64,000 nt of DNA from Saccopteryx bilineata (Eukaryota > Chordata > Mammalia > Chiroptera > Emballonuridae). Under the pieces are notes generated by a model that searched no databases, was not told the DNA's origin, and saw nothing but the letters and a program-made list of their open reading frames with translations. This document shows, in pieces, positions 1,774 to 62,538 of this stretch (positions within the stretch are counted from its first letter, which is position 1; the number at the start of each line of letters is the position of its first letter). The DNA lies in NCBI RefSeq assembly GCF_036850765.1, contig NC_089495.1:69354410-69418409 (forward strand). Direction: 5' to 3'. Position numbers and translations under genes: made by a program.

Positions 1774-1837
1774 AAAAAACTTGCAAATAGAGAAGTGTCA
1801 CTCTTTAAAAAAGAAAAAAGAATAAGTATAATTCAAT

Positions 1838-2211
1838 TTATTTTTATTTATTTATTTTTATTATTAAGTGATAAGCAGGGAGGCAGAGAGACAGACACCC
1901 TCATGCACCCTAACCAGGATCCACCCGGCAAACCCCCTATAGGGCAATGCTCTGCCTCTGGACCACAGCTCCATTGCCAGCAACCTAGCTATTTTAGAGC
2001 TGGAGGTGAGGTCATGGACCCATGCTCAGCAACGTGAGCCAACTTTGCTCTAACAATTCAAGCCATTGCTGTGGAATGAAAAGAGATAGAGGTGAAGGAG
2101 AGGAGTGGACAAGCAGATGGTCACTTCTCCTGTGTGCCCTGAATGGGAATCGAACCCAGAACATCCACTCTCTGGGTTGATGCTGTACTGCCAAGCCAAC
2201 CAGCCAGGGTG
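1838..2211 (-). mobile_element. Old tRNA-headed SINE, family A
   Basis: On the minus strand the head runs from position 2211 leftward: it is a diverged form of the ccctggctggttggct... start, followed by a B-box-like region (gggttcgattccc on the minus strand, seen as gggaatcgaaccc at 2146-2158). The body shows the family A landmarks cagatggtcacttctcctgt and accaggatccacccggc. It is substantially diverged and its tail is TTTA-rich, which marks an older subfamily. No clear target-site duplication was found. Confidence 0.8.
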
Positions 2212-2323
2212 CATATCTCATTTCCATGGAAGCCTAAACAGAAAAGAATTTCATCAATTACTATCAATATCTAAGATAATGAGACAGCTCAGAAAGAAAA
2301 TTTAAAAATCTCCAGAAAATAAA

Positions 2324-2676
2324 CATGAAGACATGGAAAAATATGATTTAAATCAGTGGTCCCCAACCTTTTCTGGGCCATGGACCGGTTTAATGTAAGA
2401 AAATATTTTCACAGACCGGCCTTTAGGGTGGGACAGATAAATGTATCACGTGACCGAGACAAGCATCAAGAGTGAGTCTTAGACGGATGTAACAGAGGGA
2501 ATCTGGTCATTAAAAATAAAACACTGTTCAGACTTAAATATAAATAAAATGAAAATAATGTAAGTTATTTATTCTTTCTCTGCGAACCAGTACCAAATGG
2601 CCCATGGACTGGTACCGGTCTGCGGCCCGGGGGTTGAGGATCACTGATTTAAATCACATTTTTCCATGTCTTCATG
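2324..2676. repeat. Inverted arms flanking a hAT insertion
   Basis: The 22 bases at 2324-2345 are the reverse complement of 2655-2676 with one mismatch (arms contain gaagacatgg / ccatgtcttc). Between each arm and the transposon lies the 8-bp target duplication atttaaat, itself a palindrome. Removing the transposon and one duplication leaves a near-perfect 52-bp palindrome with atttaaat at its centre. Either the transposon hit the exact centre of a palindrome, or these arms are part of an unusually long terminal inverted repeat. Confidence 0.85.
2354..2646. mobile_element. Non-autonomous hAT transposon (MITE)
   Basis: A 293-bp element with terminal inverted repeats cagtggtccccaacc at the left and ggttgaggatcactg at the right. 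It is flanked by perfect 8-bp duplications atttaaat at 2346-2353 and 2647-2654, the hallmark of the hAT superfamily. The subterminal parts are GC-rich and partly palindromic (ggaccggtttaatg; ggtaccggtctgcggcccgg). It encodes no protein and would need a hAT transposase supplied in trans. Confidence 0.9.
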
Positions 2677-2931
2677 ATTGAGAATTCAAGGTTGTAGATC
2701 TGAAAACATTTGAATTATAAGAAAACAGTTTAATGAATTCATAAATCAAATCAATTAACAAAAGGTATACTTTATCAAAGAGATTGATGTAAAAAATAAT
2801 CATATATAAATTCTGGAGATGAAGAATGAACTGAAAAACTTGGGGAATAAAACTAACTGGACAGAAGAAACAATTAGTTATAAGTTTAAAAATATTGTAC
2901 CTAGAAAAGGGTAAGCCCTATTTATGTTTTT

Positions 2932-3351
2932 TTTTTGTTTTTTGGGGTTTTTTTTTGTGGGGTTTTTTTTGTATTTTTCTGAAGCTGGAAACGGGGAGAG
3001 ACAGTCAGACAGACTCCTGCATGCGCCCCACCGGGATCCACCCGGCACGCCCACCAGGGGTGATGCTCTGCCCACCAGGGGGCGATGCTCTGCCCCTCCG
3101 GGGTGTCGCTCTGCCACGACCAGAGCCACTCTAGCGCCTGGGGCAGAGGCCAAGGAGCCATCCCCAGCGCCCGGGCCATCTTTGCTCCAATGGAGCCTTG
3201 GCTGCAGAAGGGGAAGACAGAGACAGAGAAGAAGGAGGGGGTGGGGTGGAGAAGCAAATGGGCGCTTCTCCTATGTGCCCTGGCCGGGAATCGAACCTGG
3301 GTCCCCCGCACACCAGGCCGACGCTCTACCGCTGAGCCAACTGGCCCGGGC
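2932..3351 (-). mobile_element. tRNA-headed SINE, family A, full length
   Basis: The element reads leftward from the head at 3351 to the tail at about 2932. It shows an A-box-like segment (ttggctcagcggtagagcg on the minus strand), a B box (ggttcgattcc), the conserved cgcccatttgcttctcc block and a cagcttcagaaa tail. The target duplication ccctatttatgtttt is found at 2917-2931 and 3352-3366. The extra T/G-rich run at 2932-2965 is an expanded, mutated A-tail. It carries two copies of the internal ccaccagggg motif. Confidence 0.95.
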
Positions 3352-3570
3352 CCCTATTTATGTTTTAAATGACAAAAAACATGAACTGTGTGTGCTATGT
3401 ATACTATATGCTTAGCAAAAAGCCTGAGTCATGTTAGGCAAATATTTTTTGTATGAATGAACATCTGTTTAGTAGAATAGATGTGAAAAGAACTTTGGAT
3501 AATAGAAGGTGAAAATGATTAGGTAATTTGGGGCAGAGAAACTTGATTTGCTTGAAAAAGAAGGTCATTT

Positions 3571-5045: not shown

Positions 5046-5534
5046 TTTTATTTTTTTTTATTTTTTTATAATTTTATTTTTTTAATGGGGTGACATCAAT
5101 AAATCAGGTTACATATATTCAAAGATCAACAAGTCTAGGTTATCTTGTCTTTCAATTATGTTGCATACCCATCACCCAAAGTCAGATTGTCCTCTGTCAC
5201 CTTCTATCTAGTTTTCTTTGTGCCCCTCCCCCTCCCCCTTTCCCTTTCCCTTTCCCCCCTCCCCCCGTAACCACCACACTCTTATCAATGTCTCTTAGTT
5301 TCACTTTTATGTCCCACCTATGTATGGAATAATGCAGTTCCTGGTTTTTTCTGATTTACTTATTTCACTTCGTATAATGTTATCAAGATCCCACCATTTT
5401 GCTGTAAATGTTCCGATGTCATCATTTCTTATGGCTGAGTAGTATTCCATAGTGTATATGTGCCACATCTTCTTTATCCAGTCATCTATTGACGGGCTTT
5501 TTGGTTGTTTCCATGTCCTGGCCACTGTGAACTT
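5046..5534 (-). mobile_element. Young 5'-truncated L1
   Basis: Starts at the left with the L1 3' end in reverse (aattttatttttttaatggg, then gtgacatcaataaatcagg) and stops abruptly after ctggccactgtgaac, so only about 490 bp of the 3' end is present. It is nearly identical to the 3' ends of the two full-length L1s in this window. It lies in the 3' tail of an older plus-strand L1. The pyrimidine-rich 3'UTR segment cccctccccctccccctttc (5223-5242) is conserved. Confidence 0.9.
5307..5534 (-). pseudogene. L1 ORF2p C-terminal fragment
   Basis: This is the last roughly 75 codons of L1 ORF2, open to the natural stop. It contains [20 protein letters not shown] and [17 protein letters not shown], which match the ORF2p C-terminus of the full-length copies at 42836-43105 and 54569 onward. 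The first few codons of the open frame (MVNKF) come from flanking DNA. The endonuclease and reverse transcriptase are absent, so it is non-functional. Confidence 0.9.
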
Positions 5535-41934: not shown

Positions 41935-42590
41935 ATTGTTTTTTAGATTCAACATATAAATGAACACATACAGTATTTGTCTTTCTCTGATTTATTTCAC
42001 TTAGTATAATACACTCTTATTCCAAATGACAAGATTTTGTTCTTTTTATTGCTGGATAATATCCAAGTTTTTGTGTATGTGTGCATGTGTGTGCATGTGT
42101 GTGTGTGTGCATGTGCGCGTGCGTGTGTGTATGTGTGCGCACACCACATCTTTTTTATCCAAGCATCTAGCAATAAACACCAAAGCTACTTCCATGTCTT
42201 AGGTATTATAAATAATGCTGCAATGAACATAGGTGTGCATATATCTTTTTGATTAGTGTTTTCATTTTCTTTGGATAAATATCCAGAACTTAAATTGTTG
42301 GGTTGTATGGTAGATCTATTTGAATTTTTTGAGAAATTTCTATACTGTTTCCATAGTAGCTGAACCAATTTGTAGTCCCACCAATAGTATACTAGGGTTC
42401 CCTTTTCTGTGCATTCTCATCAATAATTGTTGGGTTTTTGATAATAGCCATTCTCACTACTGTGAGGTGATATTTTGTGATTTTAACTTGATTTTGCCTG
42501 ATGTCTAGCGATGGTGAGCATCTTTTTCTGTTTGTTGGCCATCTGTATGTCTTCTTTGGAAAATTGTCTTTTCAAGTTTTCTGTCCATTT
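41935..42590 (-). mobile_element. Older L1, left part (split by L1 copy 1)
   Basis: Minus-strand ORF2 C-terminal relic: tgatttatttcacttagtat, ataaataatgctgcaatgaa, ccagaacttaaattgttggg, gtccattttttttt at the right edge. It continues at 50374 after the inserted full-length L1 with the duplicated ctgtccatttttttt. A (TG)n-rich run interrupts it at 42073-42140. Confidence 0.85.
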
Positions 42591-42835
42591 TTTTTTTTTA
42601 ATTTTATTTTTTTAATGGGGTGACATCAATAAATCAGGATACATATATTCAAAGATAACAAGTCCAGGTTATCTTGTCGTTCAATTATGTTGCATACCCA
42701 CCACCCAAAGTCAGATTGTCCTCTGTCACCTTCTATCTTGTTTTCTTTGTGCCCCTCCCCACCCCCTATCCCTCTCCCATTCGCCCCTCCCCCCCATAAC
42801 CACAACACTCTTATCAATGTCTCTTAGTTTCACTA

Positions 42836-45800
42836 TTATGTCCCACCTACGTATGGAATAATACAGTTCCTGTTTTTTTCTGATTTACTTATTTCGCTTC
42901 GTATCATGTTATCTAGATCCCACCATTTTGCTGTAAATGTTCCGATGTCATCATTTCTTATGGCTGAGTAGTATTCCATAGTGTATATGTGCCACATCTT
43001 CTTTATCCAGTCATCTATTGATGGGCTTTTTGGTTGTTTCCATGTCCTGGCCACTGTGAACAATGCTGCAATAAACATGGGGCTGCATGTGTCTTTACGT
43101 ATCAATGTTTCTGAGTTTTGGGGATATATACCCAGTAGAGGGATTGCTGGGTCATAAGGTAGTTCTATTTTCAGTTTTTTGAGGAACCACCATACTTTCT
43201 TCCATAATGGTTATACTATTTTACATTCCCACCAACAGTGTATGAGGGTTCCTTTTTCTCCACAGCCTCTCCAACATTTGCTATTACCTAACTTGCTAAT
43301 AACAGCTAATCGAACAGGTGTGAGGTGGTATCTCATTGCTGTTTTGATTTGCATTTCTCTAATAGCTAAAGAAGATGAGCATCTTTTCATATATCTGTTG
43401 GCCATTTGTATTTCTTCCTGTGAGAAGTGTCTATTCATATCCTCTTCCCATTTTTTTATTGGATTGTTTGTTCGTTTGTTGTTGAGTTTTATGAGTTCTT
43501 TGTATATTTTGGATATTAGGCCCTTATCTGAGCTGTTGTTTGAAAATATCATTTCCCATTTAGTTGGCTTTCTGTTTATTTTGCTATCAGTTTCTCTTGC
43601 TGAGAAAAAACTTCTTAGTCTGATGTAGTCCCATTCATTAATTTTTGCCTTCACTTCTCTTGCCATTGGAGTCAAATTCATAAAATACTCTTTAAAACCC
43701 AGGTCCATGAGTTGAGTACCTATGTCTTCTTCTATGTACTTAATTGTTTCAGGTCTTAAGTTTAGATCTTTGATCCATTTTGAGTTAATTTTAGTACAGG
43801 GGGACAAACTGTAGTCCAGTTTCATTCTTTTGCATGTGGCTTTCCAGTTTTCCCAGCACCATTGTGTGTTGTTGGCCCCTTTATCAAAAATTATTTGACT
43901 ATATATATATGTGGTTTTATTTCTGGACTTTCTATTCTGTTCCATTGGTCTGAGTGTCTATTTTTCTGCCAACACCATGCTGTTTTGATTGTCGTGGCCC
44001 TATAATAGAGTTTGAAGTCAGGTATTGTTATGCCCCCAGCTTCATTCTTTTTCTTTAGGATTGCTTTGGCTATTCGGGGTTTTTTATAGTTCCATATAAA
44101 TCTGATGATTTTTTGCTCTATTTCTTTAAAAAATGTCATTGGAAGTTTGATGGGAATTGCATTAAATTTGTATATTGCTTTGGGTAATATAGCCATCTTG
44201 ATTATATTTATTCTTCCTAGCCAAGAACAAGGTATATTCTTCCATCTCATTATATCTTTTTCAATTTCCCTTAACAATGGTTTATAGTTTTCATTATATA
44301 AGTCCTTTACATTCTTTGTTATGTTTATTCCTAAGTATTTTATTTTTTTTGTTGCAATCGTGAAGGGGATTATTCTTTTGAGTTCCTTCTCAGTTGTTTC
44401 ATTGTTGGCATATAGAAAGGCTACTGACTTCTGTATGTTAATTTTGTATCCTGCGACCTTACTGTATTGGCTTATTGTTTCTAGTAGTCTTTTTGTGGAT
44501 TCTTTGGGGTTTTCGATGTATAGGATCATATCATCTGCAAAAAGTGATACCTTTACTTCTTCTTTTCCGATATGGATGCCTTTTATTTCTTTGTCTTCTC
44601 TGATTGCTCTGGCTAGTACCTCTAGGACCACATTAAATAAGAGTGGAGAGAGTGGACAACCCTGTCTTGTTCCTGATTTAAGGGGGAAAGCCTTCAGTTT
44701 AGTGCCATTTAATATGATGTTAGCTGATGGTTTATCATATATGGCCTTTATCCTGTTGAGATATTTTCCTTCTATACCCATTTTGTTGAGAGTCTTAAAC
44801 ATAAAATTGTGTTGTATTTTATCGAAAGCCTTTTCTGCGTCTATTGATAAGATCATGTGGTTTTTGTTCTTTGTTTTGTTGATATGGTGTATTACGTTAA
44901 CCGTTTTACGTATGTTGAACCATCCTTGAGATTCTGGGATGAATCCCACTTGATCATGATGTATTATTTTTTTAATATGTTGTTGTATTCGATTTGCTAG
45001 TATTTTGTTTAGTATTTTAGCATCTGTATTCATTAGAGATATTGGTCTGTAGTTTTCTTTTTTTGTGCCATCCTTGCCTGGTTTTGGTATGAGGGTTATG
45101 TTGGCCTCATAAAATGTGTTTGGAAGTATTGCTTCTTCTTCAATTTTTTGGAAGATTTAGAGTAGAATAGGAACCAAGTCTTCTTTGAATGTTTGATAAA
45201 ATTCGCTGGTATAGCCGTCAGGGCCTGGACTTTTATTTTTGGGGAGGTTTTTAATGGTTTTTTCTATTTCTTCTCTACTGATAGGTCTGTTTAGGCTTTC
45301 TGCTTCTTCTTGACTCAGTCTAGGAAGGTTGTATTTTTCTAGGAATTTATCCATTTCTTCTAGGTTGTTGAATTTAGTGGCATAAAGTTTTTCATAGTAT
45401 TCTACAATAATTCTTTGTATATCTACGGTGTCCGTGGTGATTTCTCCTCTTTCATTTTGGATTTTGTTTATATGAGTTCTTTCTCTTTTTTCCTTGGTAA
45501 GTCTTGCCAAGGGTTTGTCAATTTTGTTGATCTTTTCAAAGAACCAACTCCTTGTTCTATTAATTTTTTCTATAGTTTTTCTGTTCTCTAATTCATTTAT
45601 TTCTGCTCTGATTTTTATTAACTCCTTTCTTCGGCTGCTTTTGGGTTGTCTTTGTTCTTCTTTTTCTAGTTCCTTAAGGTGGGAAGTTAAGTGCTTCACT
45701 TGGGCTCCCTCTTGTTTGTTCATATATGCCTGAAGTGATATGAACTTCCCTCTTATCACTGCTTTTGCAGCATCCCATAGATTCTGATATGTCGTATTGT

Positions 45801-46639
45801 CATTTTCATTAGTCTGTATATATCTTTTGATCTCTGCACTTATTTCTTCTTTGACCCATTCATTTTTTAAAAGTATGTTGTTTAGTTTCCACATTTTTGT
45901 GGAATTTTTTTTCCTCTTTTTTGCAGTTGAATTCTAGTTTCAAGGCTTTATGATCAGAAAATATGCTTGGTACAACTTCAATTTTTCTGAATTTGCTGAT
46001 GTTGTTTTTGTGGCCCAACATATGGTCAATTCTTGAGAATGTTTCATGTACACTGGAGAAGAATGTGTACTCAGTCACTTTGGGATGAAATGTCCTGTAG
46101 ATGTCTATCATATCCAGGTGCTCTAGTGTTTTGTTTAAGGCCACAATGTCTTTATTGATTCTCTGTTTGGATGACCGATCTAGAGCCGTCAGCGGTGTAT
46201 TGAGGTCTCCAAGTATGATTGTATTTTTGTCAGTTTTTGTTTTAAGGTCAATAAGTAGCTGTCTTTTATATTTTGGTGCTCCTTGGTTTGGTGCATATAT
46301 ATTAAGAATTGTTATGTCTTCTTGATTCAGTGTCCCCTTAGCCATTATGAAATGGCCATTTTTGTCTCTGAGTACTTTTCCTGTCTTGTAGTCAGCATTA
46401 TCCGATATGAGTATTGCTACACCTACTTTTTTTTGGATGTTATTTGCTTGGAGTATTGTTTTCCAGCCTTTCACTTTGAATTTGTTTTTATCCTTGTTAC
46501 TTGGATGAGTTTCCTGTAGGCAGCATACTGTTGGATTTTCTTTTTTAATCCATTCTGCTACTCTGTGCCTTTTTATTGGTGAGTTTAATCCGTTTACATT
46601 TAGTGTAATTATTGATACTTGTGAGTTCCCTATTGCCAT
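42836..46639 (-). pseudogene. L1 ORF2 (endonuclease-reverse transcriptase), broken, copy 1
   Basis: ORF2p nicks target DNA and reverse-transcribes L1 RNA. The APE-like endonuclease lies at 46639-45917 (LNVNGLNS; CCLQETH; ILGDLNTPL; DHMLGHKNN; SDHKAL). The linker and reverse transcriptase follow in the +1 frame ([39 protein letters not shown]), and the C-terminal domain returns to the first frame ([18 protein letters not shown]). Lesions: frameshift at the A-run 45917-45922, TAA at 45157-45159, frameshift in the TA-run 43900-43910, an in-frame 27-bp deletion at about 43862, and TAA at 43211-43213. The full length is about 1268 codons, close to the usual 1275. Confidence 0.95.
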
Positions 46640-46941
46640 TTTATATCTTGCTTTCTGTTAGTTTTGTGTCTTGTTTGATCCTTCTCTTTCATTTTTCTAT
46701 CTTTTGTTTTTATTTGGTTGTATTCCATACATCTTTCCTCTGTTGCTATCTTTTTTATCTCATGTGCTTCTGTGGTGGTTTTTTCAATGGTGGTTACCTT
46801 TGAGTAATGAAAAGGGTCCCTACCCTGTTCATTGTAGCGAACTATTTTGTGAGTACTTTTGCACTCCATCGTCCTTTGCTACTGTTAATCTCCATCTTCT
46901 CCCCCTCTTTCTTTTTGTTGTTGTCACAGTTTAAATTTGGT

Positions 46942-47961
46942 TTTATTGTGTTCTTCTTGGAGCTTTTACTTGTGGCTCTGTTTTCTTTTGTTCTTTGTAT
47001 CTGATTGGAGAACCCCCTTTAGTAATTCCTGGAGTGGGGGTTTTCCGATAATAAATGCCCTCATCTTTTCTGTATCTGTGAATGTTTTTATTTCTCCTTC
47101 AAATTTGAAGGATAGCTTTGATGGGTATAGTATTCGTGGCTGAAAGTTCCTCTCTTTCAGGACTTTAAATATTGGGGTCCACTCTCTTCTAGCTTGTCAA
47201 GTTTCTGCTGTGAAATCTGATGATAATCTAATGGGCCTTCCTTTATATGTTGTATTCTTCTTTTCCCTGGCTGCCTTGAGAATTTTTTCTTTGCTGTCGG
47301 TTTGTGTCAATTTCATTATGATATGCCTTGGAGTAGGTTTGTTGGGGTTAAGAAAACTTGGAGTTCTGTTTGCTTCTTGAACTTGAGGCTTTAGTTCTTT
47401 CCCCAGGCTTGGGAAGTTCTCATCTATTATTTGTTTGAGTATGTTCTCCATTCCATTTTTTCTCTCTTCTCCCTCTGATATACCTATTATTCTTATGTTA
47501 TTCTTTTTGATGGAGTCAGATAATTCTTGTAGGGCTATCTCATTTTTTTAAATTTTTGAGTCTCTTTCTTCTTCTCTCTGTTGTGCCTCAAGTTGCGTGT
47601 CTTCTATTTCACTAATCCTCTCTTCTATCTGACCTGTTCTATTAGCTAAGCTTGTTACTTCGTTTTTCAGCTCATGAATTGAGTTTTTCATCTCTGTTTG
47701 ATTTGTTTTTAAAGTTTCAATTTCCTTGGACATATATTCTTTGTGTTCATTGAGTTGTTTTCTGAGCTCCCTAAATTGCCTTTCTGTGTTTTCTTGTATA
47801 TCTTGGAGGATTTTTAGGATTTCTATCTTGAATTCTCTGTCATTTAGCTCCAAGGTTTCCAATATATTAAATTTTTTCTCCATAGATTTTTCCTCGTCTA
47901 GCTATGTTAACTCTCTTTCTTTTGTATCCATGATATTCAATTTTCTCTTCCTCAATGGCAT
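46942..47961 (-). pseudogene. L1 ORF1 (RNA-binding chaperone), broken, copy 1
   Basis: ORF1p normally trimerises through a coiled coil and coats L1 RNA. Start ATG at 47959-47961 (MPLRKRKLNIMDTKERE). The coiled coil covers about codons 30-135 (heptads such as LQDIQENTERQFRELRKQL), followed by the RRM and C-terminal domain (TPRHIIMKLTQ; AAREKKNTTYKGRPIRLSSD). Stops interrupt it at 47902-47904 (TAG), 47548-47550 (TAA) and 47197-47199 (TGA). The TAA is shared with L1 copy 2; the other two are private. Confidence 0.92.
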
Positions 47962-49360
47962 CTGAGGGTGGTTTTGTTGATAGTATTAATGAGATTTAAT
48001 AAAGAATAAAAAGTTAAAAAAAATAAAAAATCAAAAAGAGTTGTTTTTTTTAAAAAAAAATTAATAATGAAATAAAGAAAAATAAAATAATAATTTTTTA
48101 AAAAAGGAAATTATTCCCCCCCTCCTTTTTTCCTCTCCTCTCCTCTCCCCTCTTTCTTGAGAAAATCTTGTGGTGGACTGTGAATTATAACAAACAATGC
48201 CTGTGATGGAGGGCCTGAATTGGGGAAAAGTAATAAAGGGGGAAAAGAGAAAAAAAAAAAAGGAAAAAAAAAAGAAAAAAGAAAAAAAAAGAGCGTATGG
48301 ACCCACAAAAAGCAAATAAGGAAAAAATTTGGGTCAAGAATAAAATGATTTGCTTTTAGGTGTTGGTTGTCTAAGAGTTATGATGAGAGGAATAAGAGGA
48401 AAACGGAAAAATGGGGGGACAAATTAAAAAATTACTATTGTATTTAGTGGAACAAGAACTAGATAATATGGAGAGCCAGGGATGGGAGCACTGCTAGTGA
48501 GTTAAAAAGGTGAAGTAAATACCCCCCAAAATGCCACAAACATAGGTTTGAGTCCCAGATAAGATAATTTGTTTGTTATTGAGGTTTGAATGAGAGGAGA
48601 TGTAAAGGAGAAAGGAAGAAACTAATATAGAGGGAGAAAAGAAAGAGAGAGAGAGAAAAAAAGAGGGAACCAGTAAAAGAAGAAAAAAGAAAGGAGAGAG
48701 AGAGAGAGTTAAGGGTTTTGGAGTGCAACCCTCATAGAGAGAAAGGAAGAGAAGAGAAAAGATAATGGGAGATATAACACTTATGGGTAGTGTAGTTCAA
48801 GGAGAGGAGAGAGTAAGACCAATAGAGAGTTAATCGGCCAAATTGGAGGAGGAAAAAAAAGTATCAAGAATGAAGATAAGAGAAACAAACGAACAAATAT
48901 AATAAAATGGGATAGGTTATGAAGTCTGCAGATTATTCTTGATTTTGAGAGGTTATCTTCTTGCTTTTTCTTTTCTCTCCCTCTTCCTGGTCGGTGACTC
49001 TGTACCCCGGGTTCTGCCCCTTTGGCATGCTCAGGTAGAGGTTTGCAGTTGATAAGTCTCTATGGCAATGTCATGTATTGTGCTTTAGTCTCATTGGCAA
49101 TCGAAGCTCATTAGCATTTATAGGCTCTGACAGTGAGAGAGTCCGTGTTCCTGGAGCCTTTCTCCTAGTCTTTCCTTCCTCAATTAGTAGCCTGATAATC
49201 CAGCTATGGGGTTGCTGCTGCCTCTACCTGGATAGTAAGAGGCTCAAAGAGCTGGCAACTCCCCACTCTATTTCCACTCAGCACAGGGCTCTGGGTAAGG
49301 CTCAGTCAGTCAGAGCTGCTAGCATAATCAGGCGGGCTTTCCGCCCACTCAAAGACTTCT

Positions 49361-49940
49361 GGCTCTGCCACTCTGTCCGGTAACACAAGCGGGCGCCCTC
49401 TTCCGGGGCACTTGGAGGAAACTCTCACTCACTGTCTGTTACCAGCATATCTGGCCAGCAGTCTCACGCTGTGAGTGAAACCCCCAACCGCAGGGAAAAG
49501 TTGCAGCGTTGGAATTGAGTCTCACTCTGTCCCCGTGCGTGGCTTTTGCAAGGCGCTGGGGCGGCTCGAGATTCCGCTTTGGCCCACACAAAGGCCCCTG
49601 ACTCTGCCCCTCTGTGCAATAACACGGGCGTGCACTGCCGAGGCACTCGGAGGAATTGCTCACTCCTTATCTGCGCGCGCAAACCAGGATATGAGGCCAG
49701 CCGCGTTTCCCTCTGAGTGAAATACCCTCCAGCACGGAAAATCTCCACCGTTGGAATTAGTTCTCACTCCCTCCCGTGCGTGGCTTTCCCAGGGCTCTGG
49801 GGCTGCCCAGAGACTCTGCCCTCGGCCCACAGAAAGGCCTCTGACCCTGCCTCTCCGTGGGGCAACACGGGCACCCACTCTTGGGGCCTAGGAAGAAATT
49901 CTCGCCCACTAACTGCGCACCGACCAGGAGACCGGGTAAA
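49361..49940 (-). repeat. Tandem ~240-bp monomers in L1 5'UTR, copy 1
   Basis: Three consecutive units start (plus-strand view) at ggctctgccactctgt (49361), gactctgcccctctgt (49600) and gaccctgcctctccgt (49843), spacing 239 and 243 bp. Within each unit the order aacac.ggg / gaggaa..ctc / accag.atat / gttggaatt / ccgtgcgtggctt / ggcccac is repeated. The third unit is partial. Identity between units is roughly 70% by eye. Confidence 0.85.
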
Positions 49941-50346
49941 ATGGCCGCTCCGCTTGTCTTTCTTTGTTTGGGTTTGGCGCGAGTGTTAGCTTGTATTGCC
50001 CGGGTTGCCACAGGATCAGATTTTCCTTGGCTTGGATCTCTGTGCCACAGCCTGGTTCGGCCGTTTGTGCCGCGGCGGCCTGGATCTATTCACCCCCTTT
50101 GCCCGCCTCAGTTTCTATATTCACAGTTACCAGAGAAAGCCGCCCTGTTTAGGTTAGTGAGGAAGGCGGAGCATTTCTTACTCCCTATTTCCTTTGGGGT
50201 TTGGTTATATATTTAGCCAATTTTTCACTCAATCATACTTTTGGGTGTATTGTGAAGCATCTGGAAGCTCCAAGTATAGGTTTTTCTGTTTCTGGTTGAA
50301 GATCTTGTTGAGTTTTGGGAGAGATTTATCGGTATCACTTCCTACC

Positions 50347-50366
50347 CCGCCATTACTCTGACGTCA
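50347..50366 (-). promoter_or_regulatory. YY1-like and CRE motifs at L1 5' end, copy 1
   Basis: ccgccatta at 50347-50355 contains the gccat core bound by YY1, and tgacgtca at 50359-50366 is a perfect palindromic cAMP-response element. Both lie within the first 30 bases of the L1 transcript, where human L1 has a YY1 site that sets the transcription start. The function here is inferred. Confidence 0.6.
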
Positions 50367-50373
50367 TCTCCCT

Positions 50374-50754
50374 CTGTCCATTTTTTTTTATTGGATTGTT
50401 GACATTTTGTTATTGAGTTATAAGAGATCTTTATGTATTTCGGTATCAACCCTTTATTGGATATATAATTTGTGAATGTACTTTCCCATTTGTAGATTGT
50501 CTTTTTGTTTTATTAATCATTTTCTTCACATTGGAGAGCTCTTTTTTTTTAGTTTAATGAAGTCCTATCTGTTTATTTTTGCTTTTGTTTCTCTTGCTTG
50601 AAGGGACATATTCAGAAAGATATTATTCAGATTGATGAAAAATAGTTTACTTATCTCTGATTTCATCTAAGCCTTTTATGGTATCTAGCTTTACATTTAA
50701 GTCTTTAATCCATTCTGTATTAATTTTTGTGTATGGTGTAAGAGCGGGGCAGTT

Positions 50755-50798
<44 letters not shown>

Positions 50799-51345
50799 TC
50801 CTCCCTTCCTTCCTTCCTTCCTTCCTTCCTTTCTTCCTTCCTTCCTTTCTTCCTTTCATCCTTCCTTTTTTTATTTTTTTCCCACGTAATAGTGGAAAGC
50901 CAACACCACTATTAAAAAGACTGTCATTTTTCCCCTGCATTTTCTTGCCTTCTTTGTCATAGAGTAGCTGATGATACAAATGAGGGTTTATTTCTGAGCT
51001 CTAGTCTGTTTCATTGAACTATGTGTCTGTTGTTGTGCCAATATAATACTGTTTTGATTATTATAACTTTGTAGTATAGCTTGAAAACCAATTAGTGTGA
51101 TACCTCCAAATTTGTTCTTCATTTCTCATAATTGCTTTAGTTCTTTGTGGTCTTTTGTGGTTCCATGTAAATTTTTGGATTTTTTTTTCTAGTTTTGAGA
51201 AGAACACTATTGATCTTTTTATAGGAATTGCTAATGGCTTTTAGGCAGTATGATGGTTTTAACAATACTAAATTTATGAGCCCAATATGTTCTTTCATTT
51301 GTATCCTCTTCAATTTCTTTCTTTGATCTCTTAAATTCTTAATTC
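50374..51345 (-). mobile_element. Older L1, right part (split by L1 copy 1)
   Basis: Resumes the ORF2 relic of 41935-42590 after the duplicated ctgtccatttttttt. Landmarks are attggattgttgacattttg, ttgtttctcttgcttgaag, gtctgtttcattgaactatg, gataattgctttagttc-type RT text and tctttcatttgtatcctctt. A large pyrimidine microsatellite at 50757-50872 interrupts it. Confidence 0.8.
50757..50872. repeat. (TTTC)n(TTCC)n microsatellite
   Basis: About 45 bp of pure TTTC units followed by about 70 bp of TTCC-type units. It is an uninterrupted polypyrimidine tract, and polypyrimidine:polypurine mirror tracts of this kind can adopt triplex DNA. Its open frames are low-complexity F/L/S or K/E/R text. Confidence 0.95.
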
Positions 51346-51504
51346 CATCTTGGAAAAAAAAATTGATGGCACACTTTTAAAATACATCTGAAAAATACTG
51401 TCATATATTTTGCTTTTTGTTGGAGTAGGGTTACCTGATTTTATGTATGGATTTGCTTTTGCATTTTGGCCTAAGATCCTCAAGATTTTATATAAGAACA
51501 TACA

Positions 51505-51640
51505 GATGACAACTTGACTTGGGGAGGTGAGTGAACACACAATACAGTGTACAGAGATATGTTGTAGAATTTGACATTTGAAAACTTCACAATTAAATGA
51601 ACTAATGTCACCCCAATAAAATTCAATTAAGAAATTAAAT
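51505..51640 (+). mobile_element. Old L1 3'UTR end (L1MA-like)
   Basis: gaggtgagtgaacacacaat, acagtgtacagagatatgtt, gaatttgacatttgaaaact and the terminal aatgtcaccccaataaaatt followed by caattaa are the classic end of L1MA/L1PB-type elements in plus orientation. Only the last roughly 135 bp are recognisable. Confidence 0.7.
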
Positions 51641-51645
51641 CTTGG

Positions 51646-52956
51646 TGTCAAAGGCTGTCTATACACATATACAGAGTCTATAAGTCTCTGGGCTAATATA
51701 CCATATGGCTTCCACCACTAGACTCTCTTTCTATACATTCTTGGAACAACTTTGGTCCCCACAAAGCATTTACCTTAACATTACTGCTAAAATTAATGAT
51801 AATAGAGTTCATTTAATATACCAAATTACCAAATAGTCTAAGACAATCCAATATTGAAAGTGGGAGGGAATCATAAGGTTTTTGTAGGTAATCACCCTTT
51901 AAATTATTTTTCTTAAATCTTTAATTTTAAACTACTGTGAGCTAACAATTACAATATTTGGATGCCTATTAAGGTTTCTCTGGAGTGTCAACAAAATTGA
52001 ATCTCAAAATTACATTTGGGGACCTGCTATTGATCAGTTTACTATTGGAAAGTGGGAATATTATCACAAAGTGAGTTTTATTCTAAATGATTCTAAATCA
52101 AATGTCAGTCTCTATGAGTTTTCCTTTAAAAAAGCAATTTTTTCTTTCATTTATAGCTGTCATCTGGGAAACAGTAAAAAAGATATTTCAACAGAAAAGA
52201 GATAATTAGAATGCATTGTATTCCCTGGGGTTGTATACAGAGAGATTCTCCTCTGTGGATTTCAAGTTTTCTTGCCTTTGAATTCAACTCATGGGCACGA
52301 GGATATTCAGATCAAAATAAACATGAAATTTTATAGTTAACCTCTAATAACACTGACAAATTAACTATTTTTTGCCTCACTCTTTTTAAATTCTTAATCT
52401 TAATTATTCTCTGTTCTTGTGAAATCTCTTGAGTGCACTATCATCATGTGTAATATAAATTGGCACATACAGACTGCAGGCAGAAATATGACTTTCTTAT
52501 TCAGTTTTCATGAAATAATCTGTTTATTGAGAAAAGTGCATATGATTGATGACACTTCTTAGGAGGAACTACTAATTTAGAAGTACACATCTGTACTTTT
52601 TCCCATAGCAGGGTTTCAATTAAAATATCAAGAAATTGATATGGTTTTAGACATTTTTTTCCAAAAATAACCAAGTTCAGATCAACAAGTTTACACATGT
52701 TGTTTCATACTCTGCCTTTTAAGGCTGTCTTATGAAAAGACAAATATATTTTTCCTTTGCACTATTTGATGTTTGTATATTTTGCTAATATTCCTTTGAT
52801 TCTAGTATGTGCATTCATGCCTATTGTTTGTTCCAGATAAAATTAGGTTTTATATGGGGAATATAGAGGCCTTGAGAATTTATTAACATGATAAACCATC
52901 AAATGAATTTTCTGAAGAAACTTACACTTAATATAGGTACTACAAAGAGTAGATTC
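51646..52956. other. Unique AT-rich stretch
   Basis: About 1.3 kb with no recognisable gene or repeat family. Confidence 0.5.
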
Positions 52957-52970
52957 AAAACACTTTAGTA

Positions 52971-53314
52971 GGCCCTGGCCGGTTGGCTCACTGGTAGAGC
53001 GTCGGCCTGGCGTGTAGAAGTCCCGGGTTCGATTCCCGGCCAGGGCACACAGGAGAAGTGCCCATTTGCTTCTCCACCCCTCCCCCTCTCCTTCCTCTCT
53101 GTCTCTCTCTTCCCCTCCCGCAGCCGAGGCTCCATTGGAGCAAAGATGGCCCAGGCGCTGGGGATGGCTCCTTGGCCTCTGCCCCAGGCGCTAGAGTGGC
53201 TCTGGTTGTGGCAGAGCATCGTCCCCTGGTGGGCATGCTGAGTGGATCCCAGTCGGGTGCAAGTGGAAATCTGTCTGACTGTATCTCCCGGTTTCTAAAA
53301 AAAAAAAAACAAAA
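52971..53314 (+). mobile_element. tRNA-headed SINE, family A
   Basis: Head gccctggccggttggctcac, B box gggttcgattcccgg, a single ccctggtgggc motif, a degraded tail ctcccggtttctaaaaaaaa lacking cagcttcag. The target duplication aaaacactttagta / aaaacgctttagta lies at 52957-52970 and 53315-53328 with one mismatch. Confidence 0.95.
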
Positions 53315-53328
53315 AAAACGCTTTAGTA

Positions 53329-54318
53329 TAAATTTGTATATTTTCATTTATGTGTCTATTTATGATCTCCTCAAGACAAAAGGAGAAGTGAGAAGGATCC
53401 TGAAGTCAGATTATACAGCTTCTCATGAGTCAGTTTTACACATCACTTCCCAACTCCAAATTCACCGATGTCACATTCATTGCTTGAAATTAACCATGGT
53501 CTGAGTATTTACACCATAGTAATTAGTAAACAGCTTAAAAAAATGTAAGAGAACATATATGGCATTGCATATTTACTAACACAGCATTGATGATACCACA
53601 CGACAAAACTAATGTCCCTATCATTATAATTTTTTAATTTAATTCTACAGTGACCCAAGTCTAACTTTTGAAGGAAAATAGAAGTTACTAATAAAGATGT
53701 ATAACTACTTCATTCTATCCATATTTTTAAAGGTGGTGGCTATATACCTTTTTTCTATAACTTGAATATAGAATACAATAATTAAACCAAACTGGAATCC
53801 TTAACTATTTGTGGAAAATACAAAAATCAGTTTGGCTTTAACATATGTAATTATTTTTACATTTTGCCTTGACTCATACATACAAATAAAAGTAATGTGT
53901 ATTGAGTATCTCTTTTATGCCAGTAAATATGCAAAATATTTATGTATTTCAATTATTTTTACCTGCACAAGAATTGTATGAGGTAGGTAAAGAAAATAAA
54001 GTTAACTTATATAAAGCTAATGTATAAAGGTACCTTATAAAAAATATATCTTACACAAAGTTATCTTATAAACTAGGTAAAGTTAAGGAATGGTCAATTT
54101 TTTTCTTTAAGATATGTGAGTAACTACATTGTTTATAATAAATTTTGCTTTTTAAATTCAATTATTAGAAATATAAATGAAATTGTAATTTTTAAAGAGA
54201 ATTATCATAAAAATGAACAAATTAACTAATGTATTTTGTTTTGTTTACTCATATTTCTACCCTAGAATAAAGAAAGATAATACAAAATCAATATTCTTAA
54301 TATTAAATAATTAAAATA
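53329..54318. other. Unique AT-rich stretch
   Basis: About 1 kb separating the two full-length L1s. Nothing recognisable seen. Confidence 0.5.
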
Positions 54319-54568
54319 TTTTTTTTTAAATAATTTTATTTTTTTAATGGGGTGACATCAATAAATCAGGATACATATATTCAAAGATAACAAGACCAGG
54401 GTATCTTGTCGTTCAATTATGATGCATACCCGTCACCCAAAGTCAGATTGTCCTCTGTCACCTTCTATCTTGTTTTCTTTGTGCCCCTCCCCCTCCCCCT
54501 TTCCCTCTCCCATTCGCCCCTCCCCCCCGTAACCACCACACTCTTATCAATGTCTCTTAGTTTCACTT

Positions 54569-57500
54569 TTATGTCCCACCTACGTATGGAATAATGCAGT
54601 TCCGGGTTTTTTCTGATTTACTTATTTCGCTTCGTATCATGTTATCTAGATCCCACCATTTTGCTGTAAATGTTCCGATGTCATCATTTCTTATGGCTGA
54701 GTAGTATTCCATAGTGTATATGTGCCACATCTTCTTTATCCAGTCATCTATTGACGGGCTTTTTGGTTGTTTCCATGTCCTGGCCACTGTGAACAATGCT
54801 GCAATAAACATGGGGCTGCATGTGTCCTTACGTATCAATGTTTCTGAGTTTTGGGGGTATATACCCAGTAGAGGGATTGCTGGGACATAAGGTAGTTCTA
54901 TTTTCAGTTTTTTGAGGAACCACCATACTTTCTTCCATAATGGTTGTACTACTTTACATTCCCACCAACAGTGTATGAAGGTTCCTTTTTCTCCACAGCC
55001 TCTCCAACATTTGCTATTACCAGTCTTGCTAATAATAGCTAATCGAACAGGTGTGAGGTGGTATCTCATTGCTGTTTTGATTTGCATTTCTCTAATAGCT
55101 AAAGAAGATGAGCATCTTTTCATATATCTGTTGGCCATTTGTATTTCTTCCTGGGAGAAGTGTCTGTTCATATCCTCTTCCCATTTTTTTATGGGATTGT
55201 TTGTTTGTTTGTTGTTGAGTTTTATGAGTTCTTTGTATATTTTGGATATTAGGCCCTTATCTGAGCTGTTGTTTGAAAATATCATTTCCCATTTAGTTGG
55301 CTTTCTGTTTATTTTGTTATCAGTTTCTCTTGCTGAGCAAAAACTTAGTCTGATGTAGTCCCATTCATTAATTTTTGCCTTCACTTCTCTTGCCATTGGA
55401 GTCAAATTCATAAAATGCTCTTTAAAATCCAGGTCCATGAGTTGAGTACCTATGTCTTCTTCTATGTACTTAATTGTTTCAGGTCTTAAGTTTAGATCTT
55501 TGATCCATTTTGAGTTAATTTTAGTACAGGGGGACAAACTGTAGTCCAGTTTCATTCTTTTGCATGTGGCTTTCCAGTTTTCCCAGCACCATTTATTGAA
55601 GAGGCTTTCTTTTCTCCATTGTGTGTTGTTGGCCCCTTTATCAAAAATTATTTGACTATATATATATGTGGTTTTATTTCTGGACTTTCTATTCTGTTCC
55701 ACTGGTCTGAGTGTCTATTTTTCTGCCAACACCATGCTGTTTTGATTGTCGTGGCCCTATAATATAGTTTGAAGTTAGGTATTGTAATGGCCCCAGCTTC
55801 ATTCTTTTTCTTTAGGATTGCTTTGGCTATTCGGGGTTTTTTATAGTTCCATATAAATCTGATGATTTTTTGCTCTATTTCTTTAAAAAACGTCATTGGA
55901 AGTTTGATGGGAATTGCATTGAATTTGTATATTGCTTTGGGTAATATAGCCATCTTGATTATATTTATTCTTCCTAGCCAAGAACAAGGTATATTCTTCC
56001 ATCTCATTATATCTTTTTCAATTTCCCTTAACAATGGTTTATAGTTTTCATTATATAAGTCCTTTACATTCTTTGTTATGTTTATTCCTAAATATTTTAT
56101 TTTTTTTGTTGCAATCGTGAAGGGGATTATTCTTTTGAGTTCCTTCTCAGTTGTTTCATTGTTGGCATATAGAAAGGCTATTGACTTCTGTATGTTAATT
56201 TTGTATCCTGCGACCTTACTGTATTGGCTTATTGTTTCTAGTAGTCTTTTTGTGGATTCTTTGGGGTTTTCGATGTATAGGATCATATCATCTGCAAAAA
56301 GTGATACCTTTACTTCTTCTTTTTCGATATGGATGCCTTTTATTTCTTTGTCTTGTCTGATTGCTGTGGCGAGAACCTCTAGTACCACATTAAATAAGAG
56401 TGGAGAGAGTGGACAACCCTGTCTTGTTCCTGATTTAAGGGGGAAAGCCTTCAGTTTAGTGCCATTTAATATGATGTTAGCTGATGGTTTATCATATATG
56501 GCCTTTATCCTGTTGAGATATTTTCCTTCTATACCCATTTTGTTGAGAGTCTTAAACATAAAATTGTGTTGTATTTTATCGAAAGCCTTTTCTGCGTCTA
56601 TTGATAAGATCATGTGGTTTTTGTTCTTTGTTTTGTTGATATGGTGTATTACGTTAACCGTTTTACGTATGTTGAACCATCCTTGAGATTCTGGGATGAA
56701 TCCCACTTGATCATGATGTATTATTTTTTTAATATGTTGTTGTATTCGATTTGCTAGTATTTTGTTTAGTATTTTAGCATCTGTATTCATTGGAGATATT
56801 GGTCTGTAGTTTTCTTTTTTTGTGCCATCCTTGCCTGGTTTTGGTATGAGGGTTATGTTGGCCTCATAAAATGTGTTTGGAAGTATTGCTTCTTCTTCAA
56901 TTTTTTGGAAGACTTTGAGTAGAATAGGAACCAAGTCTTCTTTGAATGTTTGATAAAATTCGCTGGTATAGCCGTCAGGGCCTGGACTTTTATTTTTGGG
57001 GAGGTTTTTAATGGTTTTTTCTATTTCTTCTCTACTGATAGGTCTGTTTAGGCTTTCTGCTTCTTCTTGACTCAGTCTAGGAAGGTTGTATTTTTCTAGG
57101 AATTTATCCATTTCTTCTAGGTTGTTGAATTTAGTGGCATAAAGTTTTTCATAGTATTCTACAATAATTCTTTGTATATATACGGTGTCCGTGGTGATTT
57201 CTCCTCTTTCATTTTGGATTTTGTTTATATGAGTTCTTTCTCTTTTTTCCTTGGTAAGTCTTGCCAAGGGTTTGTCAATTTTATTGATCTTTTCAAAGAA
57301 CCAACTCCTTGTTCTATTAATTTTTTCTATAGTTTTTCTGTTCTCTAATTCATTTATTTCGGCTCTGATTTTTATTATCTCCTTTCTTCGGCTGGTTTTG
57401 GGTTGTCTTTGTTCTTCTTTTTCTAGTTCCTTAAGGTGGGAAGTTAAGTGGTTCACTTGGGCTCTCTCTTGTTTGTTCATATATGCCTGAAGTGATATGA

Positions 57501-58396
57501 ACTTCCCTCTTATCACTGCTTTTGCTGCATCCCATAGATTCTGATATGTCGTATTGTCATTTTCATTAGTCTGTATAAATCTTTTGATCTCTGCACTTAT
57601 TTCTTCTTTGACCCATTCATTTTTTAAAAGTATGTTGTTTAGTTTCCACATTTTTTGTGGGATTTTTTCCCTCTTTTTTGCAGTTGAATTCTAGTTTCAA
57701 GGCTTTATGATCAGAAAATATGCTTGGTACAACTTCAATTTTTCTGAATTTGCTGATGTTGTTTTTGTGGCCCAACATATGGTCAATTCTTGAGAATGAT
57801 CCATGTACACTGGAGAAAAATGTATACTCAGTCACTTTGAGATGAAATGTCCTGTAGATGTCTATCATATCCAGGTGCTCTAGTGTTTTGTTTAAGGCCA
57901 CTATGTCTTTGTTGATTCTCTGTTTGGATGACTGATCTAGAGCCGTCAGCGGTGTATTGAGGTCTCCAAGTATGATTGTATTTTTGTCAGTTTTTGTTTT
58001 AAGGTCAATAAGTAGCTGTCTTTTATATTTTGGTGCTCCTTGGTTTGGTGCATATATATTAAGAATTGTTATGTCTTCTTGATTCAGTGTCCCCTTAGCC
58101 ATTATGAAATGGCCATTTTTGTCTCTGAGTACTTTTCCTGTCTTGTAGTCAGCATTATCCGATATGAGTATTGCTACACCTACTTTTTTTTGGATGTTAT
58201 TTGCTTGGAGTATTGTTTTCCAGCCTTTCACTTTGAATTTGTTTTTATCCTTGTTACTTAGATGAGTTTCCTGTAGGCAGCATACAGTTGGATTTTCTTT
58301 TTTAATCCATTCTGCTACTCTGTGCCTTTTTATTGGTGAGTTTAATCCGTTTACATTTAGTGTAATTATTGATACTTGTGAGTTCCCTATTGCCAT
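54569..58396 (-). pseudogene. L1 ORF2 (endonuclease-reverse transcriptase), broken, copy 2
   Basis: Better preserved than copy 1: only two frame breaks and no stop inside the three open parts. The endonuclease (58396 leftward; [30 protein letters not shown]) runs to a +1 shift at the A-run 57674-57679. A 667-codon linker-RT frame (57651-55648; [39 protein letters not shown]) then runs to the TA-run 55657-55667. The C-terminal part ([34 protein letters not shown]) is open to the natural stop at 54569. The endonuclease and C-terminal parts share one frame and the middle is offset by one base, exactly as in copy 1. Confidence 0.95.
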
Positions 58397-58699
58397 TTTA
58401 TATCTTGCTTTCTGTTAGTTTTGTGTCTTGTTTGATCCTTCTCTTTCATTTTTCTATCTTTTGTTTTTATTTGGTTGTATTCCATACATCTTTCCTCTGT
58501 TGCTATCTTTTTTATCTCATGTGCTTCTGTGGTGGTTTTTTCAATGGTGGTTACCTTTGAGTAATGAAAAGGGTCCCTACCCTGTTCATTGTAGCAAACT
58601 ATTTTGTGAGTACTTTTGTACTCCATCGTCCTTTGCTACTGTTAATCTCCATCTTCTCCCCCTCTTTCTTTTTGTTGTTGTCACAGTTTAAATTTGGTT

Positions 58700-59716
58700 T
58701 TATTGTGTTCTTCTTGGAGCTTTTACTTGTGGCTGTTTTTTTTTTTTGTTCTTTGTATCTGATTGGAGAACCCCCTTTAGTAATTCCTGGAGTGGGGCTT
58801 TTCCGATGATAAATGCCCTCATCTTTTCTGTATCTGTGAATGTTTTTATTTCTCCTTCATATTTGAAGGATAGCTTTGATGGGTATAGTATTCGTGGCTG
58901 AAAGTTTCTCTCTTTCAGGACTTTAAATATTGGGGTCCACTCTCTTCTAGCTTGTAGAGTTTCTGCTGAGAAATCTGATGATAATCTAATGGGCCTTCCT
59001 TTATATGTTGTATTCTTCTTTTCCCTGGCTGCCTTGAGAATTTTTTCTTTGCTGTCGGTTTGTGTCAATTTCATTATGATATGCCTTGGAGTAGGTTTGT
59101 TGGGGTTAAGAAAACTCGGTGTTCTGTTTGCTTCTTGAATTTGAGGCTTTAGTTCTTTCCACAGGCTTGGGAAGTTCTCATCTATTATTTGTTTGAGTAT
59201 GTTCTCCATTCCATTTTTTCTCTCTTCTCCCTCTGATATACCTATTATTCTTATGTTATTCTTTATGATGGAGTCAGATAATTCTTGTAGGGCTATCTCA
59301 TTTTTTTAAATTTTTGAGTCTCTTTCTTCTTCTCTCTGTTGTGCCTCAAGTTGCGTGTCTTCTATTTCACTAATCCTCTCTTCTATCTGACCTGTTCTAT
59401 TAGCTAAGCTTGTTACTTCGTTTTTCAGCTCGTGAATTGAGTTTTTCATCTCTGATTTGTTTTTATAGTTTCAATTTTCTTTGGACATATATTCTTTGTG
59501 TTCATTGAGTTGTTTTCTGAGCTCCCTAAATTGCCTTTCTGTGTTTTCTTGTATATCTTGGAGGATTTTTAGGATTTCTATCTTGAATTCTCTGTCATTT
59601 AGCTCCAAGGTTTCCAATATATTAAATTTTTTCTCCATAGATTTTTCCTCATCTAGCTGTGTTACCTCTCTTTCTTTTGTATCCATGATATTCAATTTTC
59701 TCTTCCTCAATGGCAT
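58700..59716 (-). pseudogene. L1 ORF1 (RNA-binding chaperone), broken, copy 2
   Basis: Start at 59716 (MPLRKRKLNIMDTKEREVTQ), open through the first 80 codons of the coiled coil. There an extra A in tccaaagaaaattg shifts the frame; a 4-bp loss about 25 bases later restores it. The TAA shared with copy 1 lies at about 59306-59308. The RRM and C-terminal domain are open as a 169-codon frame (59209-58700; TPRHIIMKLTQTDSKEK, SDFSAETLQARREWTPIFKV, FKYEGEIKTFTD). The shape matches L1 ORF1p (about 338 codons in total). Confidence 0.92.
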
Positions 59717-60627
59717 CTGAGGGTGGTTTTGTTGATAGTATTAATGAGATTTAATAAAGAATAAAAAGTTAAAAAAAATAAAAAATAATAAAAAATCAAA
59801 AAGAGTTGTTTTTTTTTAAAAAAATTAATAATGAAATAAAGAAAAATAAAATAATAATTTTTTAAAAAAGGAAATTATTCCCCCCCCTCCTTTTTTCCTC
59901 TCCTCTCCCCTTTTTCTTGAGAAAATCTTGTGGTGAACTGTGAATTATAACAAACAATGCCTGTGATGGAGGTCCTGAATTGGGGAAAAGTAATAAAGGG
60001 GCAAAAAAAAAAAAGAAAAAAAAAGGAAAAAAAAAAGGGGGGGCGGTATGGACCCTCAAAAAGCAAATAAGGAAAAAATTTGGGTCAAGAATAAAATGAT
60101 TTGCTTTTAGGTGTTGGTGTTGTCTAAGAGTTATGATGAGAGGAATAAGAGAACAGAAAAATGGGGGGACAAATTAAAAAAATACTATTGTATTTAGTGG
60201 AACAAGAACTAGATAATATGGAGAGCCAGGGATGGGAGCACTGCTAGTGATTTAAAAAGGTGAAGTAAAAAAACCCCAAAATGCCACAAACATAAGTTTG
60301 AGTCCCAGATAAGATAATTTGTTTGTTATTGAGGTTTGAATGAGAGGAGATGTAAAGGAGAAAGGAAGAAACTAATATAGAGGGAGAAAAGAAAGAGAGA
60401 GAGAGAAAAAAAGAGGGAACCAGTAAAAGAAGAAAAAAGAAAGGAGAGAGAGAGAGAGTTAAGGGTTTTGGAGTGCAACCCTCATAGAGAGAAAGGAAGA
60501 GGAGAAAAAAGATAATGGGAGATGTAACACTTATGGGTATTGTAGTTCAAGGAGAGGAGAGAGTAAGACTGGCAGAGAGTTAATTGGCCAAATTGGAGGA
60601 GGAAAAAAAGTATCAAGAATGAAGATG

Positions 60628-61025
60628 GCCCTGGCCAGTTGGCTCAGCGGTAGAGCATCGGCCTAGCGTGCGGAGGACCCGGGTTCGATTCCCGGCCAGG
60701 GCACACAGGAGAAGCACCCATTTGCTTCTCCACCCCTCCGCCGCGCTTTCCCTCTCTGTCTCTCTCTTCCCCTCCCACAGCCAAGGCTCCATTGGAGCAA
60801 AGATGGCCCGGGCGCTGGGGATGGCTCTGTGGCCTCTGCCCCAGGCGCTAGAGTGGCTCTGGTCACAACATGGCGACGCCCAGGATGGGCAGAGCATCGC
60901 CCCCTGGTGGGCAGAGCTTCACCCCTGGTGGGCGTGCCGGGTGGATCCCGGTCGGGCGCATGCGGGAGTCTGTCTGACTGTCTCTCCCTGTTTCCAGCTT
61001 CAGAAAAATGAAAAAAAAAAAAAAA
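60628..61025 (+). mobile_element. SINE family A inside L1 copy 2 5'UTR
   Basis: Head gccctggccagttggctcag, B box gggttcgattcccgg, tail ttccagcttcagaaaaatg plus A. The target duplication aagaatgaagat lies at 60615-60626 and 61026-61037. L1 copy 1 has the uninterrupted site tatcaagaatgaagataaga near 48866-48885, so the insertion happened after the two L1 copies parted. Confidence 0.97.
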
Positions 61026-61520
61026 AAGAATGAAGATAAGAGAAACAAATGAACAAATATAATAAAATGGGATAGGTTATAAAGTCTGCAGATTATTCTT
61101 GATTTTGAGAGGTTATCTTCTTGCTTTTTCTTTTTTCTCCCTCTTCCTGGTCGGTGACTCTGTACCCCAGGTTCTGCCCCTTTGGCACGCTCAGGTAGAG
61201 GTTTGCAGTTGATAAGTCTCTATGGCAATGTCATGTATTGTGCTTTAGTCTCGTTGGCAGTCGAGGCTCATTAGCATTTATAGGCTCCGACAGTGAGAGA
61301 GTCCGTGTTCCTGGAGCCTTTCTCCTAGTCTTTCCTTCCTCAATTAGTAGCCTGATAATTCAGCTATGGGGTTGTTGCTGCCTCTGCCTGGATAGTAAGA
61401 GGTTCAAAGAGCTGGCAACTCCCCACTCTATTTCCACTCAGCACAGGGCTCTGGGTAAGGCTCAGTCAGTCAGAGCTGCTAGCATAATCAGGCGGGCTTT
61501 CCGCCCACTCAAAGACCTCT

Positions 61521-62100
61521 GGCTCTGCCACTCTGTCCAGTAACACAGGCGGGCACCCACTTCCGGGGTGCTTGGAGGAAACTCTCATTCACTATCTGTG
61601 CGCGCAGACCAGGATATCCGGCCAGTAGTCTCACGCTCTGAGTGAAACACCCAACCGCATGGAAATTTGCAGCGCTGGAATTCGCTCTCGCTCCGTCCCC
61701 GTGCGCGGCTTTTGCAAGGCGCTGGGGCGGCCCGAGATTCCGCTTTTGCCCACACAAAGGCCCCTGACTCTGCCCCTCTGTGCGATAACACAGGCGCGCC
61801 CTGCCGAGGCACTCAGAGGAATCGCTCACTACCTATCTGCGCGCGCGCGCACACCAGGATATGAGGCCGGCCGCGTTTCCCTGGGTGAAACCCTCACCAG
61901 CACGGAAAATTTCCACCGTTGGAATTAGTTCTCGCTCCCTCCCGTGCGCGGCTTTCCCAGGGCGCTGGGCCTGCCCAGAGATTCTGCTTTCAGCCCACAG
62001 AAATGCCTCTGACCCTGCCTCTCTGTGGGGCAACACGGACACCCACTTCTGGGGCTTAGGAAGAGATCTCTCGCCCACTAACTGCACACCAACCAGGAGA
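61521..62100 (-). repeat. Tandem ~245-bp monomers in L1 5'UTR, copy 2
   Basis: Unit starts (plus-strand view) at ggctctgccactctgt (61521), gactctgcccctctgt (61766) and gaccctgcctctctgt (62011), spacing 245 and 245 bp. The copy-to-copy match with L1 copy 1 unit by unit shows that the array was already present in their common source. A short (GC)n expansion, ctgcgcgcgcgcgcacac, lies at 61837-61854. Confidence 0.85.
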
Positions 62101-62511
62101 ACGGGTAAAATGGCTTCCCCGCTTGTCTTTCTTTGTTTGGGTTTGGCGCGAGTGTTAGCTTGTATTGCCCGGCTTGCCACAGGAACAGTTTTTCCTCCGC
62201 TAGGATCTCCGTGCCACAGCCTGGTTCGGCCTTTTGTGCGCGGCCTGGATGTATTCACCCCCTTTGCCTGCCTCAGTTTCTATATTCACAGTTACCAGAG
62301 AAAGCTGCCCCGTTTAGGTTAGTGAGGAAGGCAGAGCATTTCTTACTCCCTATTTCCTTCAGGGTTTGGTTATATATTTAGCCAATTTTTCACTCGACCA
62401 TACCTTCGGGTGTATTGTGAAGCATCTGGAGGCTCCAAGTATAGGTTTTTCTGTTTCTGGTTGAAGATCTTGTTGAGTTTTGGGGGAGATTTATCGGTAT
62501 CGCTTCCTACT

Positions 62512-62531
62512 CCGCCATTACTCTGACGTCA
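62512..62531 (-). promoter_or_regulatory. YY1-like and CRE motifs at L1 5' end, copy 2
   Basis: ccgccatta at 62512-62520 and tgacgtca at 62524-62531, in the same arrangement as in copy 1. Conservation of both motifs in two insertions is consistent with use as core promoter elements, but two closely related copies are weak evidence. Confidence 0.6.
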
Positions 62532-62538
62532 TCTCCCT

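Follow-up and report, generated by a model that had tools for sequence, protein, structure and literature searches.

Two neighboring full-length L1 elements in the genome of the bat Saccopteryx bilineata appear to share a set of disabling lesions in their coding sequences, which raises the question of whether a defective L1 source was nevertheless copied at least twice. An earlier note on the window (i.e., the whole stretch of 64,000 nucleotides of contig NC_089495.1 analyzed here) took the view that it was, either in trans or by L1 proteins tolerating the breaks, and placed three lesions in this source: a frame break at an A-run between the endonuclease (EN) and linker parts of ORF2, a second frame break at a TA-run before the C-terminal part of ORF2, and a TAA stop codon in ORF1. 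Our analysis favors a different history with a probability of about 0.6: the two elements would be separately inserted, decayed full-length copies of one fairly young lineage in which the EN-linker junction broke separately, the TAA and the TA-run are shared by descent, and the rest is private decay.

Both elements lie on the minus strand and, as proposed before, are full length. Copy 1 spans 42597..50372 and copy 2, which carries a SINE within its 5'UTR, spans 54326..62538 (with an approximate 3' boundary), as delimited by blastn and MAFFT comparison of the two. They have the same orientation, and corresponding points are 11.8 kb apart. The claim that they are independent insertions holds as far as their flanks are concerned, which differ, but the target duplication invoked for copy 1 is less clear-cut: 17 bases are exactly duplicated at its ends (42580-42596 and 50373-50389), and 9 of these form a T-run that may be tail, leaving only the first 8 bases outside it. 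For copy 2, an exact target duplication was looked for in the stretches compared and none was found. The SINE is a tRNA-derived 410-base insertion on the plus strand (60610..61019) with a short duplication (AAGAATGAAGAT on each side) and is present in copy 2 only; since copy 1 has the empty site, it arrived after the insertion of copy 2. Copy 1 itself sits within an older and diverged L1 that runs in the same direction (pieces at 42127-42594 and 50383-51231), and a 5'-truncated L1 3' end at 5068-5532 that is 96% identical to copy 2 represents a third young copy, which stops short of the lesion sites.

Pfam domains in copy 2 comprise PF02994 and PF17490 in ORF1 (RRM-like and dsRBD-like) as well as PF03372 (endonuclease) and PF00078 (reverse transcriptase, RT) in ORF2. 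Like mammalian LINE-1, the elements combine an ORF1 with RRM-like and dsRBD-like domains (scanned in copy 2 only) with an APE-type endonuclease and RT in ORF2 (seen in the pieces of copy 2 and, via alignment, in copy 1), and the EN, RT, and C-terminal pieces of copy 2 align with nearly all of human ORF2p (PDB 8SXT, 8UW3, and 8C8J). Unlike in mammalian LINE-1, ORF1 and ORF2 are disrupted in each copy; stops and frame breaks deprive each of intact coding capacity in cis, and they are dead members of the family. Protein searches with EN, the C-terminal part, and ORF1 gave 7685, 5757, and 4087 matches, respectively, and the 120 best of each were considered. Among these, top identities were 66% for EN, 69% for ORF1, and 76% over part of the C-terminal query (to a Rhinolophus protein); all came from other mammals, and none looked similar enough to be part of the lineage of the two copies. 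Two entries labelled as Salmonella and Entrophospora proteins (P0003 and P0186) are mammalian L1 ORF2 pieces and probably reflect contamination. A search of viral contigs with the RT protein found one locus (L001, 66% identical) where an L1 at ~540-3560, presumably of the mouse type, is fused to unrelated GC-rich sequence. This record is probably a metagenome contig that is chimeric or contaminated, and it was of no use for the question of the lesions.

The split of ORF2 into three frames, described previously as the same in both copies, is confirmed by identical offsets from the ORF2 ATG (EN at 0-777, linker-RT frame at 706-2746, and C-terminal frame from 2682; all coordinates below are on the minus strand). 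The EN frame spans 45860..46639 in copy 1 and, with the same layout, 57617..58396 in copy 2, where it holds PF03372 and corresponds to human ORF2p residues 4-241. The linker-RT frame is open over 680 codons in copy 2 (55648..57690; PF00078; residues 248-912) and carries a private stop at 45157-45159 in copy 1 (43891..45933). Likewise, the C-terminal frame is open in copy 2 (54569..55714; residues 908-1268), and that of copy 1 (42850..43957, as far as read) is interrupted by a private stop (43211-43213) and, compared to copy 2, lacks 27 bases at 43863-43864, between short AATGG repeats. Against human ORF2p numbering, the net change in copy 2 is +1 base in the interval of residues 241-248 and +2 bases near residue 908. 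Beyond the junction, the TAA, and the TA-run, the lesions of the two copies would represent private decay. Their EN, C-terminal, and post-TAA ORF1 parts differ by 25 amino acids, of which the relatives assign 9 to copy 1 and 10 to copy 2 with 6 unassigned, and many of these changes hit conserved residues as expected for decay after insertion.

The EN-linker junction is the site at which the two copies part ways. In reading order, it comprises three A-runs of A6, A8, and A5 in copy 1 (45894..45922) and of A6, A6, and A6 in copy 2 (57651..57679). The break had been ascribed to the same A-run in both copies, and the run in question (45917-45922 and 57674-57679) is indeed A6 in each, but the next two differ: A8 (45905-45912) and A5 (45894-45898) follow in copy 1, and A6 (57663-57668) and A6 (57651-57656) in copy 2. 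Ungapped, as MAFFT aligned them, the junctions differ at 7 of 14 bases compared to ~1.6% divergence across ORF2 (binomial P ~8e-10). The best alignment opens one gap of a single base in either copy and leaves two substitutions; this form is preferred at gap-open values of -2 to -6 and the ungapped form at -7, with a rough likelihood ratio of ~2000 for two gaps over none. Furthermore, a Thr codon that many relatives carry shortly before a conserved tryptophan is found in the RT frame in copy 1 and in the EN frame in copy 2, so the shifts lie on opposite sides of this codon. The distances from the ORF2 start looked identical because the net shift and the later ATG positions agree, and equal frame offsets can thus mask different mutations.

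The junction sequences of copy 1 and copy 2 are different, and the economical reading is that each copy probably gained one base separately, which would stem from slippage in neighboring A-runs. Speaking against separate events, this reading needs two indels within ~20 bases. Alternatively, the gain may have been shared and then compensated by two indels in one copy, which takes one event more, or seven substitutions may have occurred; neither is the most economical solution. We also considered programmed frameshifting at the junction but discarded it, since it leaves the second break unexplained and the junctions of the two copies differ. The junction may be prone to frame changes in L1 copies of other mammals too. 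Among the 120 EN relatives listed, the tails of 14 continue in the same alternative frame, those of 10 use the third frame, and 44 stay in frame; the other 52 stop short of the junction or were left unclassed. At least 24 of 120 are therefore out of frame, though shifted tails are over-represented in this set because the similarity ranking used a query ending in the shifted frame itself. The pattern used for classing is rough, given that the 52 include two relatives that look in frame (P0020 and P0106) and one that looks shifted (P0052). Some RepBase L1 sequences are described as losing their frame at runs of adenosines (PMC4072516); the likeness to the junction studied here lies in frame breaks at A-runs of L1 coding sequence. 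A 28-base pattern of the copy 1 junction had 0 matches in viral contigs, and none of the old L1 pieces detected in the window (E up to 1e-6) runs across the junction.

The other two lesions are shared as the earlier note had stated. The 11-base TA-run that marks the frame break before the C-terminal part (TATATATATAT; 43900..43910 in copy 1 and 55657..55667 in copy 2) is identical in sequence, and so is the ORF1 TAA (47548..47550 and 59306..59308). The TAA occupies a Lys/Arg position: among the 120 relatives listed, 76 were scored and 68 of these have K or R. At the TA-run, a spacing pattern was matched in 52 and not in 68 of the 120 C-terminal relatives listed. Exactly three residues separate the PH-Y motif from IFDK in 22 of these 52; for the remaining 30, an earlier proline triggered the pattern, and the examples inspected show the same three residues. 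Human ORF2p shows the same spacing as the relatives. Since both lesions depart from the relatives, we infer that both are derived. The alignment with an old L1 piece at 50900-51231 (67% identical) gives it two bases fewer at the TA site; with a second two-base gap ~20 bases off, however, this alignment is poor and counts for little. Agreement of the two copies by chance at both lesions seems unlikely at this divergence, and TA-run and TAA are probably identical by descent, either via a damaged progenitor or via conversion between neighbors.

The divergence between the two copies bears on the state of their common source. Outside CpG sites, they differ at 99/2256 positions of the 5'UTR (4.4%), 71/4738 of the ORFs (1.5%, with the junction entered as two substitutions), and 7/228 of the 3'UTR, i.e., about three times more in the 5'UTR than in the ORFs. 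Synonymous changes account for 31 of 75 coding differences (null 21.05 +/- 3.59; P 0.004) and for 23 of 65 without CpG sites (null 14.90 +/- 3.25; P 0.013), in a test that left out the last EN codons at the junction, gapped codons, and short stretches at segment ends. By part (non-CpG), EN+RT shows the excess (13/32, P 0.013; RT alone 8/23, P 0.05), but the C-terminal part and ORF1 taken together do not (10/33, P 0.22; C-terminal part alone 6/19, P 0.35). Together with the fact that the ORFs are less diverged, the synonymous excess is moderate evidence, from two sequences, that the ORFs were still under selection while some of the differences accumulated. The recruitment of new 5'UTRs, which perissodactyl L1s are described to have undergone (PMC5872511), can also produce the contrast to the 5'UTR. 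The copies share odd residues at only 4 of 112 positions that are at least 95% conserved in the EN, C-terminal, and post-TAA ORF1 parts; their common ancestor therefore looked near-functional in these parts. The synonymous excess makes a simple dead common source less likely.

With the junction break better read as two events, the case for a defective source comes down to two lesions, the TAA and the TA-run. The original view that all three lesions were already present in one such source can point to the identical TA-run and TAA, to identical net frames, and to insertions that are independent by their flanks and the duplication around copy 1. Nonetheless, we consider it unlikely: the junction sequences differ, the synonymous excess and the higher divergence of the 5'UTR are at odds with it, and two such neighbors would need a defective lineage to be common. 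For the two shared lesions themselves, we lean tentatively towards one progenitor that already had the TAA and the TA-run and would then have needed helper proteins from other L1s. This damaged progenitor is a simple fit to the shared lesions and sits badly with the synonymous excess, which is unexpected if both came from a dead progenitor; it needs a common defective lineage as well. A variant would be a progenitor without most of ORF1 (due to the TAA) and the C-terminal part of ORF2 (due to the TA-run) but with an intact EN-RT frame, to which the junction breaks were added later and privately. A synonymous excess that is seen in EN+RT and not for the C-terminal part with ORF1 would be in line with this variant, to which we nevertheless give hardly any credence. 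If true, it would mean that an L1 lineage spread with an EN-RT protein while borrowing the rest.

Alternatively, one copy may have handed both lesions to its neighbor by gene conversion, or both may have received them from a third copy after insertion, a possibility that overlaps with the preferred reading and that we regard with some doubt. Conversion fits the proximity and shared orientation of the copies and would explain how divergence under selection coexists with shared lesions, but it has left no clear positive trace. The nearest substitutions on either side of the two lesions leave intervals of 167 and 247 bases, which is unremarkable given that 41% of ORF sites lie in stretches of at least 167 bases and 31% in those of at least 247 bases. 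The 247-base stretch also contains the private 27-base deletion of copy 1, two events or one tract of 3.6 kb would be required, and the patchiness of differences is weak (P 0.007 raw and 0.21 after collapsing differences within 12 bases). The data do not choose between a defective progenitor and gene conversion. Independent recurrence, with TA-run slippage and the same ORF1 base change in each copy, gains some appeal from the parallel slippage that the junction suggests; it seems very unlikely, since the TAA would require one specific change twice at ~1.5% divergence. Assembly or base-calling errors at the homopolymers and the TA-run are similarly improbable: the three-frame split of ORF2 does stem from breaks in short repeats, but the TAA has the look of a base substitution, and run lengths differ between the copies.

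A known comparison for a defective L1 derivative relying on other L1s is HAL1 (half-L1), a non-autonomous element described as encoding ORF1p only (PMC5753468). Instead of keeping ORF1 and losing ORF2, the elements studied here have an ORF2 sequence of full length and an ORF1 that is itself broken by the TAA, and two copies spanning the lesion sites were seen. Among the titles listed by literature searches, none concerned a full-length defective L1 lineage amplified in trans. Such a lineage lacking the ORF1 and C-terminal parts would be notable because L1 proteins are described as acting mainly on their own RNA (PMC2666806) and a C-terminal segment of human ORF2p is described as contacting template RNA (PMC10830416). 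The case for amplification of a defective lineage is weakened by our analysis, since one of the three lesions claimed as shared is probably not shared, but two remain. If such amplification took place, a full-length L1 lineage amplified while defective would test how strict the cis-preference of L1 is over evolutionary time.
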